Assembly (NCBI RefSeq): GCF_964340395.1
Contig: NC_135564.1
Coordinates: forward strand, 9,956,391 to 10,020,390
Reading direction: 5' to 3'
Length of the DNA stretch: 64,000 nt
From: Glandiceps talaboti
Lineage: Eukaryota; Hemichordata; Enteropneusta; Spengelidae
This document shows, piece by piece, positions 32,901 to 41,900 of the stretch. The notes below the pieces were generated by a model. That model did no database searches, was not told the DNA's origin, and worked only from the letters and a program-made list of their open reading frames with translations. Each line of letters starts with the position of its first letter. Within the stretch, counting starts at the first letter, position 1. A program made the position numbers and the translations under genes.

Positions 32901-35900
32901 ATAAAACAGATTTAGAAAACAACGGAAACCTGACCTAGACACTCACACATGAGAAAATATATAAGAAGATAAAATAAAAAATCTACTTACCCCACTATTC
33001 TAAAAATGAGCGTAATCGGAACCACACAATTTTTTTTTATTATGTCTTATGTTTGGAACAGAAGGTGAATTTTCCTTTTAGGATCATTAACAACAGTTTT
33101 GATTTGTAAAGTTACATTTATAGTAAATTTCTGTAACTTTTTTTTTGCCCCTGTAGGAATACTCGTGGATCATTTCAATGTATACCATGACAATGCACTC
33201 GATGGGTATGATAATCTTCACCTAGATGACGTCTACCCAGAAGATTGTGCTCGGCGATGTCTGGACGAGACTCAGTTTGTATGTAAATCCTTTGACTATG
33301 ATAAAAACAACCAAGCCTGTGAATTGAGCAATGCTGATCAGTCAAGTGGTGGATTATCAACGTATCCAGGCAATCCTTTTGATTACTATGAAGTCAGTAA
33401 GTGCAGGAGACAAATATACTCATTTTGTTAGTCACAGCCTGCTTTATTTACTATGTGATGTATTTCAGACATAGTGCAAGGTTGAAGGTGAAACTTTTTA
33501 CAGTTGAAAATAAAACCAGTAATACAAAAAATATTTGTGAAAGGAAGTAAAAATTACTCTGATATGGATTCGGTTTGCAAGGTGATAGATATAAATGATT
33601 GACCGTTGACTTGGCAGTATTTGGATTCTTCCATCAATTGTGCAATAATTTGGGTTTTTTTCATCCTGGCAGCATCATATCCAGACCTTGTGGTCACCAC
33701 TATCTTACAGCCAGGCTCTAGATGTGCCAGTGGTTGGTTCTCTTATGGTAGTCAGTGTTATATAATGATATCAGCAGACATGTCATGGCATGATGCTAAA
33801 GATGTGTGTAGACGGGAAGGTGGTGATCTGGTCTCCATTGCTGATATTAATGAGAATTATTTTGTTATCTCATTGATCCAGACAGGTAGGTGTACTGACA
33901 CTGCTAAAATGTAGATTCTGAAACATTTTCTAGAGTCAAGCTAGCTGTAATGATAGAATTCATCATCCTGATGAGGATCGTCAAACAAGACAGATTAGAA
34001 AGCTTCTTTATGCTACACGTACTTCAAAGCTAAACTGTATGTGTGTTATAGTAATTAATGTAATAACTAATACCAGAAACTTTGGTTTCTGGAGTCATTT
34101 CATGATTTTTAACATCACATAACTTTTGTACAATTGGCCAGAAACACAAAATTGAAACATGTTTCACATTTATTGTGGTCTAGCATTGTCTCATGGGAGT
34201 TAGCATACATGCATATGTATAAGATGAACAATAAATATTCTTGAATATTTCACCTAGTAACCATGCCAGCAAAATAACAGTTATGTCATAGAAAGCGTGT
34301 ATTGATACTGACATTATACCATATTCATAAAACCAGATCTAGCCTCTTTAAGGCAGTGATTAACTCTGGTCTGCGAGAGTGCATTATACTAAGAATAGTT
34401 TAATTGATGTATTTATATTAACTAGAGTAAAAAAGTTCATAACCTCAGCTTCTGCCACTTTCATACTCGGCGAAATAAAGTGAATATTGTTCTTTGAGTT
34501 CGTTGATAAAACTAGAATCAGTCCAAGTACAGTGCATGGGCACCAGTGAATCACAAAACCAGGACTTGAAGTGAACATTGCATCAGATGTTGAAACAAGG
34601 ACTGCGTTCCAAATGGGTTTTATTGATTAAAACGTACGACGTATCAGTCCTACACCGAGGATCTGTATCAGAGAAATCTACATACAATAAAAATAGTCTG
34701 GGAAAAAATAAATAAAAGTTATGGATACTGTGCAACTAAGAAACCTAATACAAAGAAAATTGTCTTTGACAAAAATTTGTAGATTGACAATAATTACTGT
34801 GGAATGTGATTTGTTTCACAGCATGTGAGGATTGGCATTCAGATGACACCAATACTGATTATGATTATAACTATCTACCGGCTCCGATACAAAATAACAG
34901 AGTTACGTTCCAGGTGAAAGCAACAAGTGACGTCCATATCGCATTAGCAGAATTTGACTACTACGTCATGGACCAGTATGAGATTGTAATTGGTGGATGG
35001 GGTAATACACAGTCCGTCATCAGACAGTGTACACCGTGCGATCATGAAGTCGAGGTTGAGACAAACCAGATTTTGTCAGCCACGGAATTTAGAGGATTTT
35101 GGATCAATTTTGCCAATGGACTAATCCAGGTTGGGAAAGATGGTGAAGCTCCTTTCATGGAGTGGATGGATCCTGAACCTATGCCTATCAACTATGTTGG
35201 ATACAGTACCGGATATGGACATGCGGGAGAGTTTAGGTTCTGTACTGGTCACTCACGTAAGTATATATACAGCAGATTTCAAAATGCCATTCAACAGCTC
35301 TGTTTGATAAAACCACTCCGAAATCAAACAGAAACTACACATGCTACACTTTGATAGCGAGATTGCAATTTATCGCTACATTTAGTCTGAATGAAATAAA
35401 CCATCTACAACTAACCAATGTACTACAACAAGACACAGATATGTGAGAAACAATGTAACAAAGATCATGTATCGAGAATTTAAAAAAAAAACTGCATTTT
35501 TATTGAAAATCTCAATTTCAATTGCCATTTTGAAATTTTATGTACCATTTTAATTTGTTTTGATTGTTTGAGAAGATGATTGGCGAAAAATGAAATTTTG
35601 ATTTAATGCGATCTGTAATGAGGTAACATCAGAATTTGTTTGAATTACAACATTTGTACTCAAAACTAGACTCTCACAGCCTTTGCTACTTTTGCTACAT
35701 TGTCTAAATATATCAGTGTGACTATTAGCTAAAAAACTGTGGAAGTTGCAGTGAGAAGGCTTCTCCAGTTTTGGTTAGTCTTAAAGAACCGTTGAGGGTT
35801 TGATTGCAGTGTACAGCAAATTGTTACAGTGAATTTAGCGAAAGTAGCAATACTGTGAGATGGTCTAAAGTCAACACTGTCTACTTTATTGTTACTGTAG

Positions 35901-38900: not shown

Positions 38901-41900
38901 AAAAATATATAAAAATAAATTGCCTTCATTTTCAGGCTAACATAGCAATTAAAACTTTAATGTAGTAATTTACACCTTGTTTATGGAACCATTAGATAAC
39001 TACAAGTGGATAAACACTTTTTAAAAATATATATAAGTGGTTTATTTACCCAATCGTATAAAATGATTACAAAATAATGGTAACAAAAATCAAAAGAGAG
39101 AAGGGTAAATAGTAATACATAAACTACAGTTGTGCTACAGTGCCAGTGGCGATATTTTTATATATGTATATGCATAACTTTAAAACTAATTCATTTAAAA
39201 TTATTAGTGTTTAGTTTCATATTTTTTTAAACAGTTTGAAAATTCTTTAATGTTGACTGATTAATATTTATATGAATTTGTTTCCATTATTTTTGACATA
39301 GTTTTAATGTCTGTCTTTGTCTTTGTAGAGGCTGATGAAACATGGATAGGTTTACATGATCCTAGATCAGCATCTGCCTTTGAATGGAGCGATCTAAGTC
39401 CTGTCACATTTACATACTGGTCTAATGGTGAACCCAATAATTGGCAAGGACGTCAAGAAGATTGTGTCAATATGTTTGCAGATGTAAGTTAAGTGTCAAG
39501 TACATTCTGGCTATTGAATGATAATAATAGTAACCATAGTGATGATGATGATGATGAGATGATGATGATGATGATGATGATGATGATGATGATGATGATG
39601 ATGATGATGTTGATGATGATGATGATGATCATGATGATGATGATATGATGATGATGATGATGATGATGAAGATGTTGATGATGATGAAGAGGTGATGACG
39701 ATGACGACGACAATGATGAAGATGACGACAACGACAATGACGACGCCGACGACAATGATGATGATGATGATGATGATTTTTATCAGGAACATTTACTTTT
39801 ACAAAGTCAACTAATTCATATTTTGAAGCAATATTTTAAGTTCAGAAATGCAATGTTACAAAAATGAAAACACATGACTGATCAAGCATCACTAATTATG
39901 GCTTTGAGATTTGATTTAGTTAATGTGCAGCAATTGTCTAATAACTTACAATTATTGTTATTGAAAAAGATGGCTTATATCAGAGATTGTGCAGACTAGA
40001 CAATTAAAAACATTACAAACCTGAACAAAAATGTAACAAAATTGCTACATTTTATGACCTGGCTCACAAAAATCTTACCAAAATTGCTACATTTTATGAT
40101 CTGGCTCAACAAAAATCTTACTAAGATTGCTACATTTTATGATCTGGCTTAACAAAAATCTTACTGACAGCAGTACATTGTATTGCCTTGCTCAATAAAT
40201 ATCTATGTTAGTATGATATTTGTCAAGTTAGACATTGTGTTTCAGGTTTTAAGTGGTTTTAACTGTAAAGTAAACATCAATGATCTTTATTGTTTGATTA
40301 TGTATGACTAAAAGACAATTCTGATTTCAGGGTGAATCAGCTGGATTTTGGAATGATGGAAGATGTAATGATCATTTCAAGTCAGTCTGTAAGAAATCAA
40401 AGGAAGTGTTGCCACCGACAACAGGTCCCATGGAAACAGGTTGTGAAAATGTAAGATCATTATTTAGAACAGCAAAAGCATCTTGAGCATATCACGATAA
40501 AAATGTAGCTATTCTCAAAACCAATATCCTTATCCTTAGGCCTAACAAAAAAAATGTATGGTTCCAAATACGGTCATTTTTAGAATAGGTGGGGTAGGTA
40601 GATTTTTAATTTTATTATACTTTTTTAAATTTTTTTTTTCATATGGGAGTGGAGAGTTCAGGTAGTTGTGTTTTCTGTTGTTTTTCGTATGGTCTCTGTA
40701 TTATTGGTTTCTTCCCATCAGATGTATAGACATTACAGATTGAAAGAACAGTTTTATATTGTCGTTTTAAGTTGATGTCAGTTTCCGCATCCACTATTTC
40801 TCGAGAGACATCACAATACATAAAAAATTGTTTAGGGTCGGGTGAAAAACTAGGTGGGGTTGGGTAACTGGAACGAAACCAATTTTTTTATTAGGCCTGA
40901 CAAACAGCAATCTGGATCAAGCAAAAATTTCTTTGAAATTGTTAGTAATTATGATTGTAGAAAGCTTGTTACAAGAATATTCTTGGCAGTCCCTTAAAAG
41001 TATCAGTATTTGTGATCAAGATTTGCATAATGATAGAGAAAAAAGGCATTTCCACTTAAGGTAATAAGCACTTAGGAATCATTGATATTCACCTATTGTT
41101 TACACCTATTTCCCTATTGCATATGAATTCTGCTGACTCCCATGAGGCAATGTGGCCCACAGCAAAAAAATTTCAAAATGAGTCAGAAATTCAAATCGTT
41201 TTTTTCTTGTGAAATACTACATAATATAGGTGATGTAAAATCATTCTATAACATAGAGTGTTTGAAAATGCCTTTGTTTCCTGGAGTGGCGTTTTGAAAC
41301 TGAAATACTGCAGTAGCATGTACAGAGAAGACAAGAACAGAAGTCTACTATAGAATGAAAATCATGACATTGTCTACTTCATTGTTTGGATCAGATCGAG
41401 TATAGTAAAAAATTTGTTGTAAGTTATTTTGTTAATGAAAGGTACTGTATTGGTAAATTTACATACGACAAGTCTTACTAGGCTTTGTACCAGGGTTCCA
41501 TCCCATAATTATCCAAGAACACTGCCAGAAATTTGTCATGAGTTATGTTATTGTTTGTTTTTTCTCTCCTCACAGGGATGGTTTGGTTACAAAAGTTCAT
41601 GCTATCGCTTTGTTACTTTAGCTAGAGACTGGAACGCTGCCCAGGGTCAGTGTGCAGGTTGGGCAGCAAACCTGGTTTCTATCAATGATAAGTAAGTTGT
41701 GTGATGTGATATGTGATATGATATGATACGATGTGATGTGATATAATATGATATAATATGTAATATATGATAAACAGATTTACATAGCGCTTAGTATCCA
41801 TCAAGTGATGCTTTTTACAATAAATATTATCACAAGTAAGGTCTCTTGCAAAAGTATGTCTTTAGTCTCAATACTTGGTGTAAAGTGGACAGTGTTTGGC

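Follow-up and report, generated by a model that had tools for sequence, protein, structure and literature searches.

A complete FAMeT domain exon nested within a C-type lectin domain of a large receptor gene in Glandiceps talaboti

Most extracellular domain shuffling puts domains side by side. At a locus of the hemichordate Glandiceps talaboti, one domain appears to be encoded inside another, and this raises the question of what kind of protein, if any, such an arrangement makes. The window, by which we mean the whole analysed stretch of 64,000 nucleotides, is C17:9956391-10020390 of a genome of 590,416,875 bases in 47 contigs. Its exon-intron structure and its domain content fit an animal genome. 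It carries a gene with a row of C-type lectin domains (CTLDs), and in the sixth of these, CTLD6, a single exon for a FAMeT (Methyltransf_FA) domain lies between the exons for the two halves of the lectin domain. The FAMeT exon, exon 22, could be a constant part of the protein, a cassette that is included or skipped, an insertion that destroyed the lectin domain, or a stray piece of another gene or of a faulty assembly. An earlier interpretation of the bare DNA (hereafter the sequence-only reading) had left the choice between the first two. Of these two, we prefer the constitutive module, in which one domain is built into the other, to the toggling cassette, and consider it the likely reading of the sequence.

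Exon and domain anatomy of CTLD6

The exons and introns around the nested domain are as follows.

33157..33396, forward strand: exon for a PAN/apple domain, phase 1-1, directly 5' of CTLD6 (PF00024, E 2.1e-12)
33673..33885, forward strand: exon 21, N-terminal half of CTLD6 (helix region, three cysteines), ending in phase 1
33886..34821, forward strand: intron 21-22, 936 bp
34822..35256, forward strand: exon 22, complete FAMeT (Methyltransf_FA) domain, 435 bp, phase 1-1, lead 2 and trail 1
Splice sites of exon 22: acceptor tttcacag, donor CAC/gtaagt
35257..39328, forward strand: intron 22-23, 4072 bp
39329..39483, forward strand: exon 23, core of CTLD6 with the WIGL, EPN and EDC motifs, phase 1 to 0
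40331..40450, forward strand: exon 24, end of CTLD6 (WND, last two cysteines), phase 0-0, continuing in phase 0 to a likely start of exon 25 at 41576

Matched alone against Pfam, exon 22 hit PF12248 with E 9.8e-39 and 132.7 bits, against a cut-off of 24.2, and covered profile positions 2-136 of 140. This match and the splice phases confirm the earlier claim that one 435-bp phase 1-1 exon encodes a whole FAMeT domain. The joined product of exons 21, 23 and 24 matched Lectin_C (PF00059) over the full length of the profile (E 2.2e-24, positions 3-107 of 107), so that the direct 21-23 join does restore a normal CTLD, as had also been claimed. It matched UL45, a viral C-type lectin-like family, as well, but under the cut-off of that family. 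The product of exons 21-22-23-24 matched FAMeT and Lectin_C alike. Both the 21-22-23 and the 21-23 joins are in frame, the phase being 1 at every junction.

The insertion point lies between the helix part of CTLD6 and its WIGL strand. The calcium/sugar motifs of CTLD6 are present, as EPN in exon 23 and as WND within GFWNDGRC in exon 24, and binding is predicted from them. Since EPN, EDC and WND all stand 3' of the insert and are intact in the window copy, the module would be two-headed, with a calcium-dependent lectin that binds sugar and with FAMeT as a second binding surface.

Six nested copies and their origin

Next, the genome was searched for the same arrangement. Exon 21 gave at least 94 matches (150 of 296 candidates scored), six of which stand apart: the window's own (1.8e-43) and five paralogues (1.0e-20 to 9.8e-17, 49–59% identity). 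The seventh-ranked match among those listed reached 9.2e-8 with 35% identity. PF12248 gave 53 matches in the genome, and in all six copies a FAMeT exon is located 306–936 bp 3' of the exon-21 homologue. The order PAN, CTLD6 N half, FAMeT, CTLD6 core is common to the six, each having a PAN exon upstream (44–68% identity in the paralogues) and a CTLD core exon after FAMeT; a neighbouring copy keeps the longer order CTLD4-CTLD5-PAN-CTLD6[FAMeT]-CTLD7. All nested FAMeT exons are phase 1-1, with a length of 435 bp in five and 444 bp in one, and none of the six contains a stop or a frameshift. The homologues of intron 22-23 measure 350–1081 bp in four other copies. The copies form two clusters on C17 (contig of 24.1 Mb), about 1.3 Mb apart, with two copies near 10.0 Mb and four near 11.4 Mb. 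By eye, no other FAMeT match lay within 10 kb of a listed CTLD match (150 of 897 CTLD candidates scored).

Because the same arrangement occurs at all six exon-21 homologues that stand apart, chance is excluded, and the nested layout is an inherited protein design rather than an accident of one gene. The position of the FAMeT exon between the CTLD6 halves, which the sequence-only reading had described, is likewise upheld by exon anatomy, Pfam and six of six homologous loci. The same reading had named as its refuting case an exon 22 that belongs to another gene or reflects an assembly error. With six copies this explanation is so improbable that we give it almost no weight, and nothing was found that speaks for it: exon 22 has the same strand as its neighbours, with matching phase and splice sites, and it recurs at every one of the homologous places in both C17 clusters.

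A tree of FAMeT domains was built from 23 distinct exons (6 nested and 17 free), out of 31 from which L029 (internal stop) had been removed and seven identical sequences merged; the other 22 of the 53 genome matches are left out. The nested six make up one side of a branch with support 98/98, against the 17 free exons, in a tree with long end branches for L034, L032, the window copy and the free L038, of which L032 and L034 meet as long branches. As one clade, the nested domains point to a single insertion followed by gene duplication. A candidate phase-1 acceptor stands just before FAMeT in 29 of the 29 readable exons of the genome, so that in this genome FAMeT has the look of a mobile 1-1 module. 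The nested domains also differ from the free ones in their cysteines. Soon after the IGG motif, all six carry two extra cysteines, as CxxC in five and as CxxxC in L034, while the same 28-residue stretch after IGG holds a cysteine in none of the 17 free exons.

Mean identity among the copies is 57% for the N half and 58% for FAMeT (15 pairs each), and 49% for the core exon (10 pairs from five copies, L043 not included). In the three of 15 pairs that are synonymously unsaturated, the dN/dS of FAMeT was 0.11, 0.11 and 0.14; the N half gave 0.19, 0.20 and 0.09 in the same three pairs, and 0.09–0.31 over all measurable pairs. Identity and dN/dS being similar, FAMeT is held about as tightly as its host CTLD, and by these sequence measures both FAMeT and the CTLD halves are under purifying selection.

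Two further observations concern the history of these exons. Between L028 and L043, the synonymous distance was 0.46 in the N-half exon and 1.35 in the FAMeT exon, a pattern that points to gene conversion confined to the lectin exon. Elsewhere in the genome, tandem and regularly spaced FAMeT exons are found at G000:C5:14178017-14186972 (spacing of about 1.2 kb) and at G000:C7:8591872-8597460 (0.8–1.0 kb). Several exons of these arrays are identical in protein sequence, and the arrays are either recent expansions or very long repetitive proteins.

Inclusion of the FAMeT exon and the state of the lectin fold

Herein, we describe how a constitutive module would be built. The phase 1-1 FAMeT exon sits between the exon for the two CTLD6 helices and the exons for the core strands and the calcium/sugar site, and would normally be included in the transcript. 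CTLD6 would then fold around FAMeT, which would project from the loop that connects helix alpha2 to strand beta2. Among known CTLDs this loop differs in length in any case; in the PDB alignments shown, several CTLDs of LY75 and PLA2R have insertions of 1–5 residues at or near the CTLD6 insertion point, and others have none. A disulfide probably holds the two ends of FAMeT together, which would suit an insertion. The first and last FAMeT cysteines are present in all six nested copies. Among the 17 free exons only L021 is without the first, and L021 is also without the last; the loss of both is what would be expected if a disulfide joins the ends.

Could the insert have destroyed CTLD6 instead, leaving its halves as mere linkers or unfolded arms and FAMeT as the working domain? 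In L032 (G000:C17:11366636-11370016) the sugar-site motifs are degenerate (WQPD and WAD) and the homologue of exon 24, at positions 3262-3381, is frameshifted, as this explanation would have it; L032 may be a decaying gene, or there may be an assembly error there. In the family at large the signs run the other way. The halves are under purifying selection, and cysteines are kept on both sides of the insert: the three of the N half and that of the core exon (EDC/HDC) in six of six copies, and the last two of CTLD6, in frame, in three of the four copies read (the last exons of L030 and L043 were left out). EPN is found in four of the six copies and QPN in a fifth, L034, with QPD in L032, and the joined product still matches Lectin_C. 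In the disulfide pattern that is standard for CTLDs, one of the exon 21 cysteines would pair with the last one of exon 24, across the insert, and such pairing makes it unlikely that the halves are separate domains. We therefore regard a destroyed CTLD6 as quite improbable.

Several points weigh against the constitutive module. Twelve of the 15 FAMeT pairs are synonymously saturated, and in one of the remaining three, L030-L043, the N half is more constrained than FAMeT (0.09 versus 0.14). A single-sequence AlphaFold prediction of the FAMeT exon alone had a mean pLDDT of 32, and lent no support to the fold or to the closeness of its ends. One copy, L032, is perhaps broken. The other points are those that speak for a regulated cassette, in which inclusion of exon 22 would give the FAMeT form, skipping would give an ordinary CTLD6, and receptor binding would be switched between the two. 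The 21-23 join is in frame and its product has a full-length Lectin_C match. In the window copy, 9 of 15 bases in the acceptor tract of exon 22 are pyrimidines, a middling value next to the 12 of exons 21 and 23. In L034 (G000:C17:10048779-10052165), a CT-repeat tract of about 300 bases runs up to the FAMeT acceptor, around 1466, and the donor after the FAMeT exon, around 1909, is GC (AAG/gcaagt) and not GT; both features could fit variable splicing. In insects, famet transcripts include or skip a PF12248 copy (PMC10015273).

The evidence from the gene family nevertheless leaves a cassette unlikely. In-frame skipping is automatic for any 1-1 exon, and the PAN exon (33157-33396) is also 1-1. 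The donor of exon 22 is strong, with 8 of 9 consensus bases, and ranks with the best donors of the gene. Constraint on FAMeT is similar to that on the host CTLD. Conserved intron flanks and low synonymous divergence are often seen around regulated cassette exons. Conserved flanks between copies were not found, save for one 28-bp match between unlike introns, and synonymous divergence showed no clear drop in FAMeT, with pS for FAMeT and N half of 0.60 and 0.59 (L028-L030), 0.58 and 0.72 (L030-L043), and 0.63 and 0.34 (L028-L043); these comparisons of introns and synonymous sites cover only old and mostly saturated paralogues, and leave out the second intron of one copy. Since neither sign of a regulated cassette was found and skipping is automatic, the proposed toggle between a working CTLD6 and a FAMeT-bearing form is unsupported.

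The surrounding receptor gene and its relatives

The rest of the gene comprises the following features.

28810..32208, forward strand: CTLD4 and CTLD5, upstream lectin domains with phase-1 introns
41576..54486 (approximate span), forward strand: exons for CTLD7 to CTLD12, downstream, located by tblastn seeds and a splice scan, with exon boundaries settled in part only
56192..56476, forward strand: open frame with a strong hydrophobic segment, a short tail with FDNVSY, and a stop; probable transmembrane/cytoplasmic exon

The introns of CTLD4 and CTLD5 bear on where FAMeT was inserted. Counted by hand, the stretch from the E of the 'ExxF'-like motif to WIGL/YIGL has 15 residues in CTLD4, 16 in CTLD5 and 15 in CTLD6, and the phase-1 intron falls in its 6th, 6th and 11th codon, respectively. 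The CTLD6 insertion point is thus five to six codons further downstream than the introns of CTLD4 and CTLD5. The sequence-only reading had placed these introns at the same site as that of CTLD6; their phase is indeed identical, but their position is not. Given this distance, its suggestion of an insertion into an old CTLD intron is plausible rather than demonstrated.

The gene would encode a large receptor of the mannose receptor type, with about 12 consecutive CTLDs (from tblastn seeds, with exon boundaries settled in part), one PAN domain and probably one transmembrane segment; the frame at 56192-56476 is a likely candidate for its membrane end. It resembles the mannose receptor family (MRC1, MRC2/Endo180, PLA2R1 and LY75/DEC-205) in having many CTLDs in a row, and in a probable single transmembrane segment followed by a short tail with the FxNxxY-like FDNVSY, which resembles the internalisation motif of MRC1. 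The best PDB matches of CTLD6 were LY75, PLA2R, a yolk sac IgY receptor and MRC1, with whole-chain scores that sum several CTLDs. Members of that family have 8–10 CTLDs, whereas the window gene has about 12, together with an internal PAN, a nested FAMeT, and no strict fibronectin-II pattern found in the window. In its strict form the pattern was absent from both strands of the window; a domain split by an intron or lying outside would escape it. A loose match at 29377 was judged to be chance. Because the strict pattern was not found, we do not count the gene as belonging to the mannose receptor family in the strict sense. Also in the window is a 170-aa open frame at 15684-16196, which resembles the end of a LINE-type reverse transcriptase. 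Rfam gave no match on the window at gathering score.

Exon 22 belongs to the same domain family (PF12248) as arthropod FAMeT, sea star footprint proteins, mollusc shell proteins and CPAMD8. In the parts of the published accounts that were accessible, FAMeT domains occur in tandem, beside DUF3421, EGF, hyalin or WAP domains, or in the A2M-type CPAMD8, and are not shown inside a CTLD (PMC9382459, PMC9358689, PMC9363628, PMC10015273, PMC6003135). The same sources place FAMeT proteins in sea star adhesive (PMC9382459) and in abalone shell (PMC6003135), and doubt farnesoic acid methyltransferase activity even for the arthropod proteins (PMC10015273). The enzymatic name of the domain is accordingly doubtful. 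No FAMeT relatives were found in IMG/VR with the patterns used, and none of 14 pattern matches in bacterial and archaeal genomes was confirmed. A PDB sequence search with FAMeT returned two matches up to E 1, neither of them credible; the better, a dTDP-sugar reductase at E 0.0061, looks like chance. The oyster protein MFCP, a haemocyte Methyltransf_FA protein, reportedly binds microbes, going by the title of Li et al. 2021, and we know of no nested lectin in it. MFCP hints that a FAMeT domain may serve in recognition.

A FAMeT domain inside a CTLD was not found in a literature search that was thin on subscription papers and saw some sources only in part (including PMC5712788 and PMC2659687); within these bounds, the earlier claim that no mannose-receptor relative with this layout has been described holds. 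Both domains are known ones; what appears to be new is that one is nested in the other, that six genes conserve this arrangement, and that a cysteine pair is confined to the nested copies.

Taken together, the composite may be a new recognition unit, a calcium-dependent lectin that bears a second, differently folded binding domain in its alpha2-beta2 loop, with a single origin by exon shuffling into a CTLD intron, a cysteine pair of its own, and two-headed binding in a family of six invertebrate receptors for uptake or immunity; for this whole combination our confidence is tentative. The likeliest role of FAMeT, we infer, is as a second recognition surface on such an uptake or immune receptor, and the protein would serve in uptake, with microbes or other glycans as its probable ligands. 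By way of a phase-1 intron that matched its own phase, a complete module entered another domain, and it was kept through at least five gene duplications. The family shows, in a clean natural example, how nested domains evolve by exon shuffling, and it offers a testable clue that the poorly understood FAMeT domain is a recognition module and not an enzyme.

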